From positions 1-33,900 of the forward strand of contig JAKVBV010000023.1 of the NCBI GenBank assembly GCA_022446965.1: a stretch of DNA of 33,900 bases, in the 5' to 3' direction. Numbering within the stretch: the stretch's first letter is position 1; each line of letters opens with the position of its first letter. Shown piece after piece: positions 25,160 to 33,900 of the stretch. Under the pieces are notes generated by a model. It ran no database searches. It was given only the letters and a program-made list of their open reading frames with translations, and had not been told where the DNA came from. The position numbers and the translations under genes were made by a program. The stretch comes from Phycisphaerales bacterium. GTDB taxonomy: Bacteria; Planctomycetota; Phycisphaerae; Phycisphaerales; SM1A02.

Positions 25160-27963
25160 TGGTGCAATACCCCATCGCGTTGGTGATCGCCGCCGTGGTC
25201 GTGCCGGTGCTGGCCTGGTCGGCGTGGCGCGTGCAATCACGCATCGGTCCGGGGCGAGCGTGGGCCTCCTTCGCAGTCCGCAGCCTGTTGATCGGAATGT
25301 TGTCCCTGGCCTTGGCCCAGCCTCTGGTGTCGCGGGGCAGCGACGACGTCACCGTGGCCGTGATTCTCGATCGCAGTCGATCGGTGTCCGAGCCGAGCCT
25401 CGAGCAGGCGGTCACCTGGATCAACGAAGCGGCGGTGGCCGAACCAAGAACCGACACGGATCGGTTGGCGCTGGTGCATGTGGCCAGACAAGCGATGCCC
25501 GGTGCAATGCCGTCGCCGTTGTCCGAGGTCTCGCTGCGCACGGCGCCCGGTCCGCGTGATGCGACAGATCTGCGCAGCGCGGTTGAACTGGCCCGCGCCA
25601 TGGTGCCGCAGGACACACGCAATCGACTGTTGTTGGTGTCGGATGGGCTGTCCACGACCGGGCCACTGTCGGCCCTGGCCCGCAAGGACATGCCGGTGGA
25701 CGTGCTGGTGTTGCCGGTCGATCGCGACCGAGATGTGCGGGTGGAGCGCATTCAAGCGCCCTCGCATGCCCGGGCAGGGTCGACCATCGAAGCAGGCGTG
25801 GTGTTGCATGCACCCACGGCAGCCACCGGTCGGCTGATGGTGCGCCGCAATGGTGTTCCGGTGCAGTTGCATCAGGGCACCGCCAGTGGAGAGGGGATTC
25901 CGGTCCAGCTCGCCGCGGGCATGAACGTGATTCCCATGCACGTGCAGGCCGATGGCACCATGACCCGGCTGGATGCCACCTGGGTGCCCGACGTGCGCAC
26001 CGGTGATGCCGTGGACAACGACTCCGGAATCGCTGTCGTGCTGCCCGCGGCCGTTGGCGAAGTGCTCCTAGTGGGCGAGCGCCAGTCCGACATGAACGTG
26101 CTCGCCGACATGCTCGCGGGCGAGGGCGTGACCGTGCGAACAGCGTCCACCGCGGCCTTGAGCACCGGCACGGCGGCGCTGGCTACGATCGATGCGCTCG
26201 TGCTGGTGGACGTGCCACGCTGGGCACTGCCGCCCAATGTGGATCTCGCGCTGGCCAATTGGGTGAATCACAGCGGAGGCGGGCTGTTGATGACCGGCGG
26301 CACACGGTCGCTGGGCGCCGGCGGTTGGATTGGATCCGAACTTGAATCGGTGCTGCCCGTCCTTCTCGATCCTCCAGTGGAGCGCCAGATTCAACGTGGT
26401 GCGCTCGTGCTCATCATGCATTCGTGTGAGATGGAGCGAGGCAACTACTGGGGACGCCGCGTGTGCGAGCTGGCGATCGAAGCGCTCACGGCGCAGGATC
26501 TCATCGGCATCGTGGAGTACGGCTGGCGTGATGGAGGTGTGTCCTGGGCGTTGCCGCTGCAGGAAGCAGGTGATCGCACGGCGGCCCTGCGGGCGGCCGC
26601 CAGTTTGCAGTACGGCGACATGCCCGATTTCACCCCGTCGTTCCGCGCCGCCTTCGAGGCGCTGCGTGATGTGGATGCCGGGCAACGACACGTGGTCGTG
26701 ATTTCTGACGGCGATCCGCAGCCTCCGCCACTGGAGGTACTCAATGGCATGGCCGATCTGGGAATCGCCGTGACCACCGTGCAGGTGGGCGGGCATGGTC
26801 GAGCAGCCGATCGCAAGCGAATGGAAAACCTCGCGATGGTGACCGGTGGTGAGTTTCATCGGTTGGAGAACGCCGAAGACCTGCCGCAGATCATCATCGA
26901 AGCGTCGCAACTGGCATCGCGATCGATGGTGCAACAGGGCACGTTCGACGTCGTGCAGACCGGAACAGCCGCAGGCCCCGTGGCCGACTGCACCGTGCCC
27001 CCGACGGTGCACCGATATGTGTTGACCGCACCTCGCGAGGGAGTGGCATCGGTGCCGTGGGCCCTGCAGCAGGCGAACTCGGCCGATCCGCTCGTGGCCT
27101 GGTGGCAGCGGGGGTCCGGCCGTGCTGCGGTGGTCACCGTGGCCCCCGGTGATCAATGGACGCCGCAGTGGACACAGTGGCCTGACCGCGCCCGCTTCTG
27201 GGCGGATCTGGTGCGGTGGCTGCGCCCCAATCCGGACGACGGCACGTGGGTGCTGCAATCGCGTACCGGGGACGGGGGCAAGGTGGATGTTACGCTCGAA
27301 GCGACCACGGAAGAAGCCGGCGGCCGTCTGCCCGCTGCTCGCGCCGCAGTGTTGGCACCCGACGGCTCGATGCGACACGTTGAACTGCATGCCGCCGGGC
27401 CTGGCCGGGCAACCGGTCGCTACGTGATGGATCAGCCTGGTGAGTGGTTGGTCATCGCTGCCGTGGATGATACTCACGGTGAGGCGCCGACCACGGTGAG
27501 TGCTGCATCGGCGATGGCCTGGCCTGATGAAGATCGTGCCGTTGCCGCGGATGTGCGCGCCATGGAACGTCTTGCTGAAGCCACCGGCGGTCGAGTGCAC
27601 CGACTTGATGACGATCCTGCAATGGCGGCCTTGTTCTCCCGCGATGGGCTCACTGCCATGTCTGCGCCCGGGCCGATCTGGCCCTGGTTGGTGATCGCAG
27701 CAGCCATCCTGCTTCCCATCGACGTCGCCGTGCGGCGACTGGTCCTCTCGCGTGAAGCACAGGCCGGGCCCATGGTGCAGAAGACGCCGTCCACGTCGGC
27801 ACCCAAGCGTCGCGCAGCACCAGCGAGTGCGCCCGTGCAGGATGCTACACCCGCACCAATCACACCGCCGGAGGATGCGTCCGACGACGACACCGACGAC
27901 GATGCGATGGCTCGACTGCGTGAAGCGCGTCGCCGCGGCCGTGGTGAAGAGGAAGACCTGTGA
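25159..27963 (+). CDS. Membrane protein with two VWA domains and a GATase-like domain, MoxR-Bat cluster
   Basis: The 934-residue product has two N-terminal helices (ALVIAAVVVPVLAWSAW; VRSLLIGMLSLALAQPLV) and one near the end (IWPWLVIAAAILLPIDVAV). VWA domain 1 starts at VAVILDRSRSVS, with an intact MIDAS D71-x-S73-x-S75. A glutamine-amidotransferase-like segment follows (EVLLVGERQSDMNVLADML to GGGLLMTGGTRSLGAGGW). VWA domain 2 begins LVLIMHSCEMERGNYW, where the MIDAS Asp and first Ser are replaced (Met420-His-Ser-Cys-Glu). It continues with HVVVISDGDPQPP. The tail is acidic and then Arg-rich. The family is typical of planctomycete MoxR-Bat loci, probably an envelope complex scaffold. The start ATG overlaps the previous stop (TGATG); GTG 25153 and 25156 are alternatives. 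The stop overlaps the MoxR start in GTGA. Confidence 0.85.
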   Translation: MVQYPIALVIAAVVVPVLAWSAWRVQSRIGPGRAWASFAVRSLLIGMLSLALAQPLVSRGSDDVTVAVILDRSRSVSEPSLEQAVTWINEAAVAEPRTDTDRLALVHVARQAMPGAMPSPLSEVSLRTAPGPRDATDLRSAVELARAMVPQDTRNRLLLVSDGLSTTGPLSALARKDMPVDVLVLPVDRDRDVRVERIQAPSHARAGSTIEAGVVLHAPTAATGRLMVRRNGVPVQLHQGTASGEGIPVQLAAGMNVIPMHVQADGTMTRLDATWVPDVRTGDAVDNDSGIAVVLPAAVGEVLLVGERQSDMNVLADMLAGEGVTVRTASTAALSTGTAALATIDALVLVDVPRWALPPNVDLALANWVNHSGGGLLMTGGTRSLGAGGWIGSELESVLPVLLDPPVERQIQRGALVLIMHSCEMERGNYWGRRVCELAIEALTAQDLIGIVEYGWRDGGVSWALPLQEAGDRTAALRAAASLQYGDMPDFTPSFRAAFEALRDVDAGQRHVVVISDGDPQPPPLEVLNGMADLGIAVTTVQVGGHGRAADRKRMENLAMVTGGEFHRLENAEDLPQIIIEASQLASRSMVQQGTFDVVQTGTAAGPVADCTVPPTVHRYVLTAPREGVASVPWALQQANSADPLVAWWQRGSGRAAVVTVAPGDQWTPQWTQWPDRARFWADLVRWLRPNPDDGTWVLQSRTGDGGKVDVTLEATTEEAGGRLPAARAAVLAPDGSMRHVELHAAGPGRATGRYVMDQPGEWLVIAAVDDTHGEAPTTVSAASAMAWPDEDRAVAADVRAMERLAEATGGRVHRLDDDPAMAALFSRDGLTAMSAPGPIWPWLVIAAAILLPIDVAVRRLVLSREAQAGPMVQKTPSTSAPKRRAAPASAPVQDATPAPITPPEDASDDDTDDDAMARLREARRRGRGEEEDL

Positions 27964-29012
27964 CCGCGCCGGCCCTGATTTCGGCGCCCGATGGTGCACC
28001 TGCGTCGCCGGAGGCCTTCATCGAGGCTGCCGCGACATTCAAGGCCGGCCTTGATGCACTGCGTGATGAGACAGCGCGTGTGATCGTGGGGCAGGACGAA
28101 CTTGTTGCCGGCGTGTTGGCGGCGGTGCTTGCCCGGGGGCACGTGCTGCTTGAAGGCCCGCCCGGTCTGGGCAAGACGCTCCTTGCCCGCACCATCGCAC
28201 AGGCCACCGGACTGTCCTTCAATCGTGTGCAGTGCACGCCGGATCTCATGCCCGCCGATGTCACGGGCACGACGGTGTTGGTGGACGACGCGGCAGGCGG
28301 TCGGCGCTTTGAGTTCCGTCCCGGGCCGGTGTTTGCGCACATGCTGTTGGTGGACGAGATCAATCGTGCCGTGCCGCGCACGCAATCGGCGCTGCTCGAG
28401 GCGATGCAGGAGCGCACCGTGACGGTGGGCGATACCACACATCCGCTGCCCGATGCATTCACGGTGCTGGCGACGCGCAATCCCGAAGGTGATGAAGGCA
28501 CGTACCGGTTGCCTGAAGCCCAGCAGGATCGATTCATGGTCATGCTGCAGGTGCGTCATCCATCGGCCGACGAACTCGCCACGGTGGTCGATCGCACCAC
28601 CGGTGGCCCTTCCGTCGAGGTGCGGTGCCGGTTGGCGCCGGATTTCCTCACGGCGGCCGCATCGCTGGTTCGGCATGTGTGGGTGAGTTCGCATCTGCAT
28701 CGGTGGGTGGCCAATCTGGTGGTGGCCACCGATCCATCGGGGCCCGCGCCGTGTGATGCGATCATGCCCTGGCTCGACGCAGGCGCCGGGCCTCGTGCCG
28801 GACAGGCGATGCTCGCACTCGCTCGTGTGGCGGCGCTGTCCGAAGGTCGTCCGGCCATCGGGCGACGCCACATCAAGCAGGTCGCGGCGGTGTGTCTGTG
28901 TCATCGGTTGGCCTTGTCGCCCTCGGCGATCGCCCGGGGGATCGATCATCGCGAGGTGGTGCGCCAGTTGCTTGACGCCGTGCCTGTACCGGTGGTGGAG
29001 GACCAGGCATGA
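27960..29012 (+). CDS. MoxR-family AAA+ ATPase
   Basis: The 350-residue AAA+ ATPase has Walker A GPPGLGKT (residues 66-73) and Walker B HMLLVDEINRA. Also present are the MoxR-type substrate loops FNRVQCTPDLMPADVTGTTV and EFRPGPVF, the sensor 1 region VLATRNPEGDEGTYRLPEAQ and the sensor 2 area near AIGRRHIKQVAAVC. MoxR proteins act as chaperone-like ATPases that work with VWA proteins, often to mature or activate other complexes. It starts at GTG 27960, overlapping the previous stop (GTGA), and ends overlapping the DUF58 gene (ATGA). Its cytoplasmic location and its DUF58 and VWA neighbours match the usual MoxR partner set. Confidence 0.93.
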   Translation: MTAPALISAPDGAPASPEAFIEAAATFKAGLDALRDETARVIVGQDELVAGVLAAVLARGHVLLEGPPGLGKTLLARTIAQATGLSFNRVQCTPDLMPADVTGTTVLVDDAAGGRRFEFRPGPVFAHMLLVDEINRAVPRTQSALLEAMQERTVTVGDTTHPLPDAFTVLATRNPEGDEGTYRLPEAQQDRFMVMLQVRHPSADELATVVDRTTGGPSVEVRCRLAPDFLTAAASLVRHVWVSSHLHRWVANLVVATDPSGPAPCDAIMPWLDAGAGPRAGQAMLALARVAALSEGRPAIGRRHIKQVAAVCLCHRLALSPSAIARGIDHREVVRQLLDAVPVPVVEDQA

Positions 29013-29935
29013 GTCGGTGGGGCGAATCACCTCCGCGCCCGGCATCGGTCGATGCGTTGCTCGATCCTGCGGTCGCTGCAGCGCTGGTCGGTCTGGACAT
29101 CGAATCGCGCAAGCTGCTGGCAAGCCCGCGACATGGTGAGCGCCGCAGCACGCGGCGGGGTACGAGTGTGGAGTTCGCGGACTTTCGTCCCTATACCGCA
29201 GGGGATGATCTTCGCCGGATCGACTGGAATGTCTACGCACGGCTCGATGCCCTCGTCATCAAGTTGTTCCAAGATGAAGAAGATCTGCTCACGGTGCTGG
29301 CCGTGGATGACTCCGCATCCATGCGATTTGGCACGCCCTGCAAGCACACCACGGCATCGAAGATCGCCTTTGCGCTTGGCGTGACGGCCTTGGGCGCGGG
29401 TCATCGTGTGCAGGCGCACGCGCTGGGCGCCGAGGGCGCCGTGTCACAGACACTGCGTGGTCGCGGTGGTGCAGGGCAGCTTGGCAAGTGGCTCATCGAT
29501 CTGTCCGCAGATGGCCGCGGTGATCTGGCGATGGATCTCAAGGCGCTGTCCGGGGCCGTCCGCGGTCGGGCCAAGATCATCGTGCTCACCGATGCCTTGG
29601 TGCCTAGTGACGCCATGCCGGCGGCCATGAGCACGTTGGCATCTCGTGGGCACGACGTTCATCTCTTGCAGGTGCTGTCACCGCAGGAGTTGCAACCATT
29701 GGCCACGGGGTTGTCAGGTGACCATCGATTGGTGGATGCCGAAACCGGTGAGGGACCAGCGGTCAGCATGACGGCGTCGATCGAAGCGGAGTATCGCGCC
29801 CGATTGAATGCCCATGTCGAGATGATCGATGCAGCGGCGCATCGATGTGGTGTGCGGCCGCTGTTGGTGCGCACCGATGAGCCGCTTGAAGACCTGCTCC
29901 GATCACGGTTGCGGCAGGGGGGTGTGCTGCGATGA
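29009..29935 (+). CDS. DUF58 domain protein of the MoxR-Bat cluster
   Basis: The 308-residue protein carries the DUF58 signature VEFADFRPYTAGDDLRRID followed by WNVYAR, then a VWA-type fold: LLTVLAVDDSASMRFG (D-x-S-x-S motif) and AKIIVLTDALVPSD. Upstream, [20 protein letters not shown] is the usual basic stretch. DUF58 proteins regularly sit between MoxR and BatA-type genes and are thought to be partners of the ATPase. No membrane helix is evident. The start overlaps the MoxR stop (ATGA), and the stop overlaps the next start in the same way. Confidence 0.93.
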   Translation: MSRWGESPPRPASVDALLDPAVAAALVGLDIESRKLLASPRHGERRSTRRGTSVEFADFRPYTAGDDLRRIDWNVYARLDALVIKLFQDEEDLLTVLAVDDSASMRFGTPCKHTTASKIAFALGVTALGAGHRVQAHALGAEGAVSQTLRGRGGAGQLGKWLIDLSADGRGDLAMDLKALSGAVRGRAKIIVLTDALVPSDAMPAAMSTLASRGHDVHLLQVLSPQELQPLATGLSGDHRLVDAETGEGPAVSMTASIEAEYRARLNAHVEMIDAAAHRCGVRPLLVRTDEPLEDLLRSRLRQGGVLR

Positions 29936-31827
29936 CACTGATCGCACCGTGGCTTGCTCTGGGACTGCTGCTGGCGTTGGTGCCTGCGCTGCTGGTGCTG
30001 TGGATTCTGCGACTGCGCCGTGCCCGCATTCGAGTGCCTGCCCAGTGGTTGTGGTCTGACGCCCGCGAAGATCTCCGGGCTCAGGTGCCGTTTCAGCGTT
30101 TGCGGTGGTCGATTCTCCTTCTGCTGCAGCTGATCGCCCTCGGACTGTTGTTGCTGGCGGCCGCTCGTCCTCGAGTGGTGGCGTCATTGCACAGCGGCGG
30201 GCGAACCGTGCTCATGATCGACACGTCGGCCTCGATGCACACCCGTGATGCATCGCAGGGGCGACGTCGGTTTGACGCAGCTCGCGAAGCCGTGCGCGGG
30301 GCGATCGATCGACTGCACCCCGGTGGCTTGATGGATCACGGTGGTGGGCAGACCATGCTCGTCACACTGGGTGCACGGCCGCAGATCGTGCAGCCGTTCA
30401 CGTCGTCACGGGCCGTGTTGCTGCAGGCGCTCGAGTCGATCGACGTGACGGACGAGCCAGCCACGTTGACGCCGGCGCTCGATTTGGCCCATGCCTGGGC
30501 GGCCGTGCCCGACCCTGATGCTGGTGAAGCGCCTGCTGAAGGCACCACCCACCTGGAGGTGTTCAGCGACGGTGGCCTGGCCGATCTGGTTGATGCGCTC
30601 GATGGCCTCGATGCGCCGCTGGTGTTGCAACATGTCGGTGCAGAAGACACGCCCAACGCCGCCATCGCCCGCATTGGCGGCACCCGTGACCCGGCAGATC
30701 CAGCCAAGCTCACGCCGTGGGTGTCGGTCATGCACTGGGCTGCCCAGGCGGCCTCGGTGAAGATTCGTCTGGTGATCAACGGGGAGCCGTCTTCGGTGCG
30801 GGCGATCGATTTGCCGGCGGCAACAGAAGACGGCCCCGGGCGGGTGGACGTGATGTTCCCCGCCGTGCGCAGTGCGGGCCGGACAGCATTGACCGCCGAA
30901 CTGGTGCCCGGTGATGCGCTCGCCGAGGATGACATTGCCCGATGCATCGTGCCTGAATCCGGTGGCGCACGCGTGGCGCAGATGGGCAAGTCAGCACCAC
31001 TGCTGCGCCGAGCATTGGCTGCGTTGGGGCTGCACGCTGCTGGCGATGAGTCGCCTGATCTGGTCGTGGCGGTCAGCGATACGACGGCGGCCTTGCCGGC
31101 CGTTCCAAGTCTGTCCTTCGGCGCACCCCCGGTGTCGGCCATGGTGAAGCCAGCCGCCACGGTGCCCGACACGAGCATCGCGACGTCGTCGCACCGCCAT
31201 GCGGTGTCGCGTGGCAGTCGGTTGACGGGCATTCGTGCCGCTGGTGCACATGTGGTGCAGGTGGACCCGGGCGTGCGTGTGCTGGCGTCATCACGAGAAG
31301 GGCCGCTCATCGTGGCCTGGCGAGAACAGGGTGTGCCTCGCATTCATGTCGGCTTCGAGCCTTCGCGCAGCACATGGCCGCAGCGAGAAGACTTCATCAC
31401 ATTCCTGGTGGATGCCACCGCATGGCTGGTCGGCATTGATGATGAGGCAGGTGGGCATGTGGCCGGGGACCGCATCGAATTGGCGCTGCCCGCGCAGACC
31501 ACGTCAGTGGATGTGCAGTTCAACGGTGACACGATCGACACCTTCTCGCCCGCCGATCCATCGCGGGCGATCTGGGGACCGGCGCCGCAGGCTGGGGTCT
31601 ACGCCTTTCACTGGGCATCGCCAGATGCACAGGGCGTGCGTGAAGCGGTGGTCAACATGCCGGTCGCTGTTGAAGGAGACACCCGACGCGGTGCATTCAC
31701 GATCGACGATCCGCTGCTCGAGGCGCGCCGGGCATCTGATCGCGGCGTGCCGCTGTGGCCGTTCGCCGTGATCGGCGCGGTGCTCACGTTGATCGCCGAG
31801 TGGTGGATCTGGGTGAAACGGCAGTAG
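29932..31827 (+). CDS. BatA-like VWA membrane protein
   Basis: The 631-residue product has the N-terminal BatA layout: helix 1 (WLALGLLLALVPALLVLWIL), a short cytoplasmic loop with VPAQWLWSDAREDLRAQVPF, and helix 2 (WSILLLLQLIALGLLLLAAA). A VWA domain then starts at VLMIDTSASMHTRD with the MIDAS D97-x-S99-x-S101 intact. The remaining 400 residues are beta-rich periplasmic sequence (VKIRLVINGEPSSVRAIDLP and others) followed by a last helix (LWPFAVIGAVLTLIAEWWIW). It is longer than classical BatA (about 330 residues) because of this extra C-terminal part, as in many planctomycete homologues. It is the last gene of the plus-strand run. It faces the TPR-YggX gene with only 14 bp between stops, and no T-run terminator was seen there. 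Confidence 0.9.
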   Translation: MTLIAPWLALGLLLALVPALLVLWILRLRRARIRVPAQWLWSDAREDLRAQVPFQRLRWSILLLLQLIALGLLLLAAARPRVVASLHSGGRTVLMIDTSASMHTRDASQGRRRFDAAREAVRGAIDRLHPGGLMDHGGGQTMLVTLGARPQIVQPFTSSRAVLLQALESIDVTDEPATLTPALDLAHAWAAVPDPDAGEAPAEGTTHLEVFSDGGLADLVDALDGLDAPLVLQHVGAEDTPNAAIARIGGTRDPADPAKLTPWVSVMHWAAQAASVKIRLVINGEPSSVRAIDLPAATEDGPGRVDVMFPAVRSAGRTALTAELVPGDALAEDDIARCIVPESGGARVAQMGKSAPLLRRALAALGLHAAGDESPDLVVAVSDTTAALPAVPSLSFGAPPVSAMVKPAATVPDTSIATSSHRHAVSRGSRLTGIRAAGAHVVQVDPGVRVLASSREGPLIVAWREQGVPRIHVGFEPSRSTWPQREDFITFLVDATAWLVGIDDEAGGHVAGDRIELALPAQTTSVDVQFNGDTIDTFSPADPSRAIWGPAPQAGVYAFHWASPDAQGVREAVVNMPVAVEGDTRRGAFTIDDPLLEARRASDRGVPLWPFAVIGAVLTLIAEWWIWVKRQ

Positions 31828-31841
31828 CCACCGCGGCCACG

Positions 31842-32459
31842 TCAGGACGCGAGCGACTCGGGAATGCCCAGGTATTCACGCATGTGCTGATCGTAGGTCT
31901 CGCTGTCTTCGTCGCGAGACAGATCAAGACGCAGTTCGTTGATGACCTTGGTGCCTTGGCCGATCCATTCGTCCCATGTCTCGCGGCTGATGTGCTCGGC
32001 GATCCACTCACCCTCGGGCCCTTTGAAGGGCGGCCCTTCAAGTTGTGAACCAGCGCGGCCGGTGCGTTGACAGATGAAGTCACCACTGGAGGCGGCAGCT
32101 TCGGCCTTGGCCTTGGTTTCAGCGTCGAGCTCAGGCAGGGGACGGCCGAGATTCTGCAGCAGATCGGCCATCGCGTCCTGGGGCAGGCGGTCGCCACGAG
32201 CTGCGGCGATCGACCATCCTTCTTCGAGCACGGCGGCGGCCTTGTCTTCCCAGCCGGCCTGCATCATGGCTTCGCCACACAGCTGCCATGCCTTGCTCAT
32301 CTCTCGGTTGAGTTCGGTGCAGCGTTGGAATGATTCGGCCGCCTCGGCAGCGCGGCCGGCCTGGAGATAGGCCGACCCGAGACTGAAGTGCGCCATCTCG
32401 TTGTCGGGATCGGCGGTGGCCATGTTCTCAAAGCGAGCGATGCGTTCGTCTGTGGACAT
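31842..32459 (-). CDS. TPR domain fused to a YggX-like Fe(2+)-trafficking domain
   Basis: The 205-residue cytoplasmic protein has two parts. Residues 1 to about 95 are tetratricopeptide-type helices (ADPDNEMAHFSLGSAYLQAG; AAEAAESFQRCTELN; AWQLCGEAMMQAGWEDKAAA). From about residue 127 it matches YggX, the iron-trafficking and oxidative-damage protection family: FICQRTGRAG with Cys130 at the family's conserved N-terminal Cys, PPFKGPEGEWIAEHISRETW, EWIGQGTKVINELRLDL and a last helix DQHMREYLGIP. Standalone YggX is about 90 residues, so this is YggX with an added N-terminal TPR partner domain. The YggX match is by eye. The start ATG at 32459 lies 26 bp from the divergent pyrD start, so the promoters must overlap the coding sequences or be very compact. 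Confidence 0.8.
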   Translation of the reverse strand: MSTDERIARFENMATADPDNEMAHFSLGSAYLQAGRAAEAAESFQRCTELNREMSKAWQLCGEAMMQAGWEDKAAAVLEEGWSIAAARGDRLPQDAMADLLQNLGRPLPELDAETKAKAEAAASSGDFICQRTGRAGSQLEGPPFKGPEGEWIAEHISRETWDEWIGQGTKVINELRLDLSRDEDSETYDQHMREYLGIPESLAS

Positions 32460-32485
32460 CCGAGCATTCTATCGGGCGACGTATC

Positions 32486-33394
32486 ATGTCGACCATGCTC
32501 GGCCCCCTTGAACTTGACCGCCCCGTGGTCGCCGCCGCCGGAACCGCCGGCACCGGCTGGGAGCTCGGTGAGGTGCTGGACCTGCGATGCCTCGGTGCGG
32601 TCACGACCAAGTCGATCACACGGGCTCCACGAACAGGCAATCCGGCGATGCGCGTGGCAGAACTGCCCACGGGCATGATGAACGCCGTCGGGCTGGCCAA
32701 TCCCGGCGTGGATGGGTTCCTCCGCGAGCATCGAGCCAAACTTGATGGTCTGCCATGTGCAGTGATTGGTTCAGTGGCTGGTGAATCGGTGGAGGACTAC
32801 CTCTTCGTCGCCGAGGCGCTGGCCAGCTCGGGCCTCGACGCGGTCGAGTGCAACGTGTCGTGTCCCAATACCGGCGACGGACGGCTGTTCTCGGACAACC
32901 CGGCGCAACTGCAGACGCTCGTTGCCGCCGTGAAGGCGGCCGTGGGATCGGTGCCGGTGCTGGTCAAACTGCCGCTGGATTTCCAGCCAGCATCGCCAGC
33001 AGCGCAGGCCGCGATCGACGGCGGGGCGGACGTGCTCACCCTCACCAACACCGTGCCCGGATTGGCGATCGATCCGTACACGCGGCGGCCGCGATTGGGC
33101 AACGGCCCTGGCGGTGTCAGCGGCCCGGGCATTCATCCCATGGTGGTGCGCATGATTCGCGACGTGTACACGCGCGTGGCGCAGCGGGCGGGCGTGCCGA
33201 TTCTCGGCCTCGGGGGTGTCTTCAATTGGGAAGATGCCGCTGAAATGGTGCTCGCCGGCGCTTCAGCCGTTGGAATCGGCACGGCGTTGTTCGCCGATCC
33301 CAAGCGAGCGAAGAAGATCGATGCGGGCCTGCAGCGATGGGTGCGTGATCAGGGTGCAGACGATCTGGCCTCGCTCGTGGGCGCCATGGCCTGA
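32486..33394 (+). CDS. pyrD: Dihydroorotate dehydrogenase, class 1 type
   Basis: The 302-residue flavoprotein oxidises dihydroorotate to orotate in pyrimidine synthesis. Features visible: AVTTKSITRAPRTGNPAMRV, NAVGLANPGVDGFL, the active-site ECNVSCPNTG with Cys126 as catalytic base (class 1; class 2 has Ser), VLVKLPLDF, LTNTVPGLAID and the phosphate-binding LGLGGVFNWEDAAEMVLAGA, then VGIGTALFADP. Cytosolic, with no N-terminal membrane extension. Cys rather than Ser and the NT-PG loop favour class 1B, which needs an electron-transfer partner PyrK; none is in the window. The start ATG at 32486 was used; ATG 32495 is possible. The 3' end overlaps murD on the other strand by 46 bp. Confidence 0.94.
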   Translation: MSTMLGPLELDRPVVAAAGTAGTGWELGEVLDLRCLGAVTTKSITRAPRTGNPAMRVAELPTGMMNAVGLANPGVDGFLREHRAKLDGLPCAVIGSVAGESVEDYLFVAEALASSGLDAVECNVSCPNTGDGRLFSDNPAQLQTLVAAVKAAVGSVPVLVKLPLDFQPASPAAQAAIDGGADVLTLTNTVPGLAIDPYTRRPRLGNGPGGVSGPGIHPMVVRMIRDVYTRVAQRAGVPILGLGGVFNWEDAAEMVLAGASAVGIGTALFADPKRAKKIDAGLQRWVRDQGADDLASLVGAMA

Positions 33395-33900
33395 TCCGCA
33401 TCGGGCGGTGACAGCGACCGCACCAGCGATTCAAAGTGGGCGCCGCGCTGGCGAAAGTCGGTGTACTGGTCCCATGAGGCACATCCCGGGCTCAGCACCA
33501 GCAGGTCGGTGTCGTTCATGCGTTCGAGCGCCCGTGCCACGGCGACATCGAGCGTGCCGCAGATGGTGGCGTGGTCGCCCGCGCTGGCCGCGATCGTCTC
33601 CCCCGTGGCACCGATGCAGTACAGCCCGCCAAGGTGTGCACTCCGCGCGGCGATGTCGTCCAGCGACACACCCTTGTCGTAGCCCCCGACAATGAGATGC
33701 ACGTGTGACAGTCGATCAGCGAAGGCATCGAGCGCCAACATGGTGGCCGCCGGTGTTGATGACTTGGCGTCGTTCCAGAATCGATCAGTGGTCCACCCAT
33801 CGAGTGGTTGCAGTCGGTGGGGCAGGCCCGCAAAGGTGGCCAGCGCGGCGCTCGCATCGGCACGGTCCACACCGGCGGCTTGTGTTGCCGCCAGGGCGAG
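33349..33900 (-). CDS. murD: UDP-N-acetylmuramoylalanine--D-glutamate ligase, C-terminal part (5' end cut by window edge)
   Basis: About 184 codons of the C-terminus are present, running off the right edge. MurD adds D-glutamate to UDP-MurNAc-L-Ala in peptidoglycan synthesis. The C-terminal ligase domain is recognisable: RFWNDAKSSTPAATMLALDA, HLIVGGYDKGVSLDDIA, YCIGATGETIAA and LLVLSPGCASWDQYTDFRQRG. The central ATPase domain is outside the window. A peptidoglycan gene in a planctomycete-type genome fits with current evidence that these bacteria make peptidoglycan. It overlaps the pyrD end by 46 bp. Confidence 0.93.
   Translation of the reverse strand, partial: LALAATQAAGVDRADASAALATFAGLPHRLQPLDGWTTDRFWNDAKSSTPAATMLALDAFADRLSHVHLIVGGYDKGVSLDDIAARSAHLGGLYCIGATGETIAASAGDHATICGTLDVAVARALERMNDTDLLVLSPGCASWDQYTDFRQRGAHFESLVRSLSPPDADQAMAPTSEARSSAP

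Follow-up and report, generated by a model that had tools for sequence, protein, structure and literature searches.

The window, by which we mean the whole 33,900-nucleotide stretch of Phycisphaerales DNA analyzed here, carries on its reverse strand an open reading frame (31842..32459, stop codon included) that begins with ATG, contains no internal stop and encodes a 205-amino acid protein in which TPR repeats are joined to an Iron_traffic domain, as assigned by the ORF call, Pfam and a structural model. This fusion gene is divergent from pyrD, with a gap of 26 bp between the two start codons (32460..32485), and convergent with a BatA/VWA gene. On the forward strand at 27960-31827, genes for a MoxR-type AAA ATPase, a DUF58 protein and the BatA/VWA protein stand in a row and resemble a Bat cluster. 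The product of pyrD (32486-33394, forward strand) passes the cut-off of the NCBIfam dihydroorotate dehydrogenase model PRK07259 (294.5 versus 269 bits), and the C-terminal part of a Mur ligase (PF02875, 30.4 bits) follows on the reverse strand at 33349-33900, where it is cut by the window end.

Architecture of the fusion protein

We predicted the structure of the fusion protein with AlphaFold2 from a 69-sequence alignment (pLDDT 92.9, pTM 0.82) and searched its sequence against Pfam; all coordinates in this section refer to the reverse strand. Residues 1-108 (32136..32459) make up the TPR half, on the combined basis of Pfam TPR matches, model helices and VIA-align. Three Pfam profiles matched this N-terminal half above their cut-offs, namely TPR_19 (32.1 bits, cut-off 25), TPR_2 (29.4 bits, cut-off 27) and TPR_8 (26.7 bits, cut-off 25.7), and the model predicts a helix at 3-16, TPR helices at 21-33, 37-50, 55-67 and 71-88, and a further helix at 91-103. 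With profiles above cut-off and TPR helical pairs both found, we count the protein among the TPR repeat proteins. VIA-align of the model over approximately residues 1-107 gave Z scores of 13.8-16.0 against the 50 best chains, mostly TPR. Residues 1-107 are thus predicted to share the fold of TPR scaffold proteins (Z up to 16.0), from which the window protein differs in its short length, in a GDxMP segment specific to the family and in the treble clef at its C-terminus. Among the most constant residues on the TPR side of a 132-row alignment of fusion proteins are M13, F25, L27, A57, A85, G89 and P93. Inspection by eye revealed no signal peptide, and the protein is probably cytosolic. Residues 109-125 (32085..32135) form a linker, with a helix predicted at 113-123 from the model and alignment, and this linker is the least conserved part of the fusion protein across the same 132 rows.

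Residues 126-199 (31863..32084) constitute the Iron_traffic or YggX-type treble-clef domain. The Iron_traffic profile (PF04362) matched residues 129-197 with an E value of 3.1e-13 and 49.8 bits (gathering cut-off 27), spanning profile positions 6-74 of 88. A phmmer search against PDB sequences identified 1t07 (PA5148) with E values of 1.6e-9 for the whole window protein and 2.5e-10 for the C-half, and Foldseek aligned the model with 1t07 over 73 columns at 36% identity (E = 7.3e-3, probability 1.00, TM 0.80 by target, rmsd 1.8 A), a match ranked 33, after TPR chains. The VIA-align lists were filled by TPR chains, with 1t07 absent among the best 50, and so hold little information on the C-half. 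As modeled, the C-half has the fold of the solved YggX structures. An earlier reading of this DNA, made from its letters without database searches (the sequence-only reading), had proposed a YggX-like domain fused to TPR repeats; the fusion is confirmed, since both halves score above their Pfam cut-offs and 1t07 is matched in sequence and in structure. The Iron_traffic match lies within residues 125-205, where that reading had expected it, and Cys130, ISRETW (157-162) and INE (173-175) are indeed at the positions it had named.

The C-half and YggX (PF04362; 1t07, 1yhd, 1xs8, 2mzy) have in common the fold, a profile match above the gathering score, a cysteine at the position of Cys130 and an INE motif followed by a leucine three residues on, which is present in all four solved structures; elsewhere in the fusion family, the cysteine is often absent. 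Unlike the YggX equivalog, which is a single domain of about 90 amino acids, the window protein is 205 amino acids long with a TPR half, and it scores 50.8 bits against the NCBIfam YggX equivalog PRK05408 (oxidative damage protection protein), under the cut-off of 74. Its gene has pyrD and BatA/VWA as direct neighbors rather than mutY, whose position directly beside yggX is a gammaproteobacterial feature according to the accessible part of PMC11078426. The same part of that source places a critical cysteine near the N-terminus of YggX and cites a paper whose title calls Cys-7 of Salmonella YggX essential. In the accessible part of PMC4999995, YggX is grouped with domains that have lost zinc chelation, as a treble-clef zinc finger whose solved structures are without zinc, a view with which the four-Cys rows described below agree; the accessible part of PMC4982691 includes YggX among putative iron donors for the repair of oxidised clusters. 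We found no description of a fusion of a YggX-type domain with TPR repeats in the open-access literature searched, a body that mostly excludes subscription journals. Two relatives (L117 and L118) are 245-amino acid fusion proteins with a C-terminal extension past the treble clef, in which they share the segment REMVLRMFGDPDEIA.

Distribution and genomic neighborhood

The source genome (2.24 Mb, 112 contigs, 97% complete) contains one PF04362 match, the window gene. In an order-wide draw, PF04362 matched in 194 of 201 genomes, including 172 of the 176 of high quality, with one match per matching genome except for G515, which has two. A draw across the phylum Planctomycetota gave a match in 47/392 genomes. 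The fusion was present in 31 genomes of the window's order and in 10 of another class, 5 loci had no TPR half, and one match (G065) lay under the PF04362 cut-off and was left outside both forms. In the second class (that of G117), 10 of 29 genomes matched PF04362, all 10 with fusions that have four cysteines at the ligand positions described below; in the phylum draw, no match was found in the 10 genomes that belong to the window's own class but not to its order. We further identified 72 loci in a public genome collection, most from Phycisphaerales or another planctomycete; one, from a Desulfosarcina record (L103), had a TPR match only. From these loci, 68 non-identical full-length rows were aligned with the window protein, at 38-74% identity. 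When a four-Cys fusion was searched against 72,556 plasmid records, 33 records matched, none covering 80% of the query, and each of the best 20 of these 33 covered at most 53% of it.

Based on its presence in 194 of 201 order genomes and 10 of 29 second-class genomes, together with the public-collection matches, the fusion counts among the core genes of the order, occurs patchily in a second class and is more than a local peculiarity. The survey across Planctomycetota that the sequence-only reading had suggested thus found it widespread in the window's part of the phylum. A spurious ORF or a chimeric assembly is ruled out by this frequency, by the full-length relatives and by purifying selection in the gene pairs listed, and a spare copy beside a normal YggX is ruled out by the single match in the source genome and the one match per genome elsewhere, G515 excepted.

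Counts of pyrD and Bat neighbors were taken from tblastn positions, as all-versus-all ORF clustering seemed to mix sense and antisense frames. Within flanks of up to 5 kb, PyrD was found at 54 of the 67 public-collection loci with at least 1.5 kb upstream; at 36/67 it was divergent and within 400 bp of the fusion gene, and three different arrangements were seen overall. Bat genes were near the fusion gene at 35 of 60 public-collection loci with at least 2.5 kb downstream. No PyrD match was obtained at 10 four-Cys fusion loci (L160-L169), some of which have short flanks, or at six order loci of Asp-rich families (L170-L175). The neighbors of four-Cys fusions, mainly at L168, were a P5C reductase, a beta-lactamase-fold protein, a PfkB protein, a DUF3500 protein and a WD40 protein, without a common function, and 2 of 9 such neighbor proteins had no profile match. 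No iron or Fe-S gene was seen among the annotated neighbors of the fusions, which are a small set. The PyrD protein of the window has no match but itself in the source genome, in which no match to the DHODB Fe-S (PyrK) domain PF10418 was found at 97% completeness.

The source genome has SufBD on contig C30 and SufE on contig C66, with no match to NifU_N; by these matches a SUF system is present and not adjacent to the fusion gene. A position directly within a SUF gene row was seen only for stand-alone four-Cys genes, in both genomes of one family (f64; L183:3956-8184 and L184:3950-8199, from two genera). Here the genes run on one strand in the order ABC ATPase (sufC by position), SUFBD, Aminotran_5 (sufS-like), sufU and the stand-alone four-Cys Iron_traffic gene directly after it; sufU was called by Pfam (NifU_N) in L184 and by motif, with a change of frame, in L183. 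Three ORFs checked beyond the four-Cys gene gave no match to further suf genes. These two genomes belong to the class of G084, in which 3/12 genomes match PF04362 and 2, the f64 genomes themselves, do so above the cut-off. Gene order in two genomes of another class, in a form without the TPR half, thus indicates a link between the domain and iron-sulfur assembly.

The probable former metal site and its history

We next consider the four positions that correspond to metal ligands, all located by alignment and on the reverse strand. In the window protein they are Cys130 (32070..32072), Thr133 (32061..32063), Ser158 (31986..31988) and Thr161 (31977..31979), the last three being cysteines in four-Cys relatives. 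Where an intact treble-clef zinc site has four ligands, the window protein thus has C, T, S and T, keeping one of the four cysteines of the fold group to which YggX is assigned in the accessible part of PMC4999995. Fused four-Cys proteins from the second planctomycete class have the same domain and a TPR half; over 9 non-redundant rows, their mean identity to the window protein is 40% for the TPR half and 41% for the C-half, and they differ from it in a complete CxxC-x24-CxxC site. This site is complete in 11/11 four-Cys fusion rows (L011, L014, L016-L020, L027, L031, L097 and L105, of which L011 and L097 are apparently the same record); within its alignment, L097 shares 32-40% identity with the 36 other rows. 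Four-Cys proteins also occur without a TPR half, as in L006 and L007, and these stand-alone forms follow sufU. In a four-Cys model, the first CxxC lies at the hairpin and the second at the start of the helix.

Ligand types were counted in a 151-row alignment comprising 159 loci minus left-out rows, plus the window protein, with some genomes still represented twice. The rows left out were L119 (no match), L099 (contig end), L103 (TPR only), L001 (the window again) and, for lack of a TPR half, L002, L003, L006, L007 and L013. Rows longer than 300 amino acids, and those sharing at least 93% identity with a retained row, were removed to give the 132-row set. As 40 rows (L120-L159) were hand-chosen so as to favor Asp-rich or odd families, proportions in both sets are not those of a random sample; order membership of the public-collection rows was taken from taxon names in the records and from tree position. 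Of the 151 fusion rows, 11 have cysteine at all four positions, 3 at two, 90 at one and 47 at none, and none of the 11 comes from the window's order, where three of the four ligands are nearly always gone. The 132 non-redundant rows comprise 9 four-Cys sequences and 123 order sequences, the latter with Cys (79), Asp (40) or another residue (4) at position 130. The phylum draw, which is closer to a random sample, gave 22 Cys and 9 Asp at this position in 31 order rows, plus 10 CCCC fusions outside the order.

The replacement of Cys130 in 44 of 123 non-redundant order rows, in most cases by Asp, rules out a general requirement for this residue. Three members of the window's own family, f1 (L151, L158 and L159), have no cysteine at any of the four positions. 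Cys130 is kept in 39/42 rows of the window's part of the tree, and on this basis it seems to be under selection there; an Asp in its place could itself bind metal. The most conserved stretch is KVINELRL (residues 171-178; 31926..31949, reverse strand): across the 132 fusion rows, four-Cys rows included, K171, I173, N174, E175 and L178 are conserved at 1.00, R177 at 0.99 and V172 at 0.98. Because KVINExRL is nearly invariant in all ligand types, the alignment identifies this helix and the fold, rather than the cysteine, as the most conserved part of the C-half. Among 60 pairs listed, 13 Asp-type pairs had dN/dS values of 0.056-0.228 in the Iron_traffic half, consistent with purifying selection; these pairs represent one large clade, the scattered cases (L074, L087, L093-L095) lying outside it, as do L151, L158 and L159. 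By this measure, the Asp-type genes tested are not decaying. The sequence-only reading had tied iron delivery or redox protection to Cys130 and the neighboring motifs. As a property of the family this is not supported, given the replacements, the selection on Asp-type genes and the lack of an iron gene among the few annotated neighbors; what survives of the proposed iron or redox role is the iron-sulfur link of the domain, seen beside sufU.

We inferred the history of the site from two trees. In a quick tree built without the four ligand columns, a branch with a support of 100 separates the four-Cys rows from all others; the Asp label has to change 8 times on this tree, and starred branches force at least 4 of these changes. 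A domain tree of 39 rows and 70 columns, with the ligand columns likewise dropped and stand-alone canonical YggX as outgroup, places the fusions on one side of a branch (97/83). Together with the common TPR half, this branch supports a single origin of the fusion. The best domain tree nests the window's order among the four-Cys fusions, and long branches meet in it; a tree constrained to keep all four-Cys rows in one group is 6.46 log units worse without being rejected (p-AU 0.189). That the order lost three cysteines would be the simpler reading of these sequences, though not a proven one, and since the grouping of four-Cys rows is not rejected, cysteines may instead have been gained elsewhere.

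Possible roles of the fusion

To our knowledge, the mode of action of YggX, whether as an iron carrier or as something else, is still unsettled. We tentatively favor, at somewhat less than even confidence, a two-domain adaptor derived from an accessory of Fe-S assembly, which would act by protein contact and whose metal site would have decayed. The C-half would be a YggX-type treble clef derived from a metal-binding domain with four cysteines. In the window's order, its metal site would have decayed to the polar set of Cys or Asp130, Thr133, Ser158 and Thr161, with the Cys or Asp serving the fold. The fold would then function with no metal held by cysteine: the nearly invariant KVINExRL helix would serve as the working face of this domain, and a second docking surface would come from the TPR half. 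Such an adaptor may bring a client to a partner by protein contact, and an iron or Fe-S protein is a plausible client given the position of a related form in a SUF cluster and the link of YggX to Fe-S repair.

The same evidence can be read in other ways. That the protein acts as YggX in the classical sense, with Cys130 taking part in Fe(II) trafficking or oxidised Fe-S cluster repair and the TPR half directing this activity to a partner, is suggested by the Iron_traffic profile and fold matches, by the alignment of Cys130 with the YggX cysteine (essential as Cys-7, by the title cited in the accessible part of PMC11078426), by its retention in 79 of the 123 order rows, and by the SUF neighborhood of the stand-alone relative and the SufBD and SufE of the source genome. 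We nonetheless consider it unlikely: the remaining 44 rows do without Cys130, the tested Asp-type pairs are under purifying selection and the equivalog score falls short of its cut-off. Also doubtful is a generic TPR adaptor with a purely structural treble clef and no iron link at all, for which the family name would be misleading. It accords with the incomplete metal site in the order and with annotated neighbors (pyrD, MoxR-DUF58-BatA, P5C reductase, the beta-lactamase-fold, PfkB, DUF3500 and WD40 proteins, Mur ligase), but YggX is tied to iron in the accessible parts of PMC11078426 and PMC4982691, and the four-Cys relative sits in a SUF neighborhood.

Coupling to pyrimidine synthesis, in which the fusion would serve the divergently transcribed dihydroorotate dehydrogenase of a genome where no PyrK Fe-S domain was found, draws on the frequency of PyrD in the flanks and its three arrangements, on the lack of a PF10418 match and on the single PyrD match in the source genome. 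It is nevertheless very improbable in our judgment, as PyrD gave no match at the four-Cys fusion loci (some with short flanks) or at the Asp-rich order loci, and common ancestry of gene order could explain the remaining loci.

Returning to the adaptor derived from Fe-S assembly, a broader evolutionary proposal, to which we give a low probability, is that the fusion is an order-wide core TPR protein whose YggX-type domain came from a SUF-linked four-cysteine site, with metal binding replaced by protein contact and a repeated change from Cys to Asp at the last ligand. If this is true, classical YggX may likewise retain its essential cysteine as a remnant of a zinc or iron site that was lost, and the members of the YggX family would be adaptors of Fe-S assembly, not carriers of iron. 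Because the domain occurs naturally with four, one or no cysteines, the mechanism of YggX becomes directly testable: such a series would allow one to tell whether Cys-7 acts as a metal ligand or a redox thiol, or matters for the fold only.
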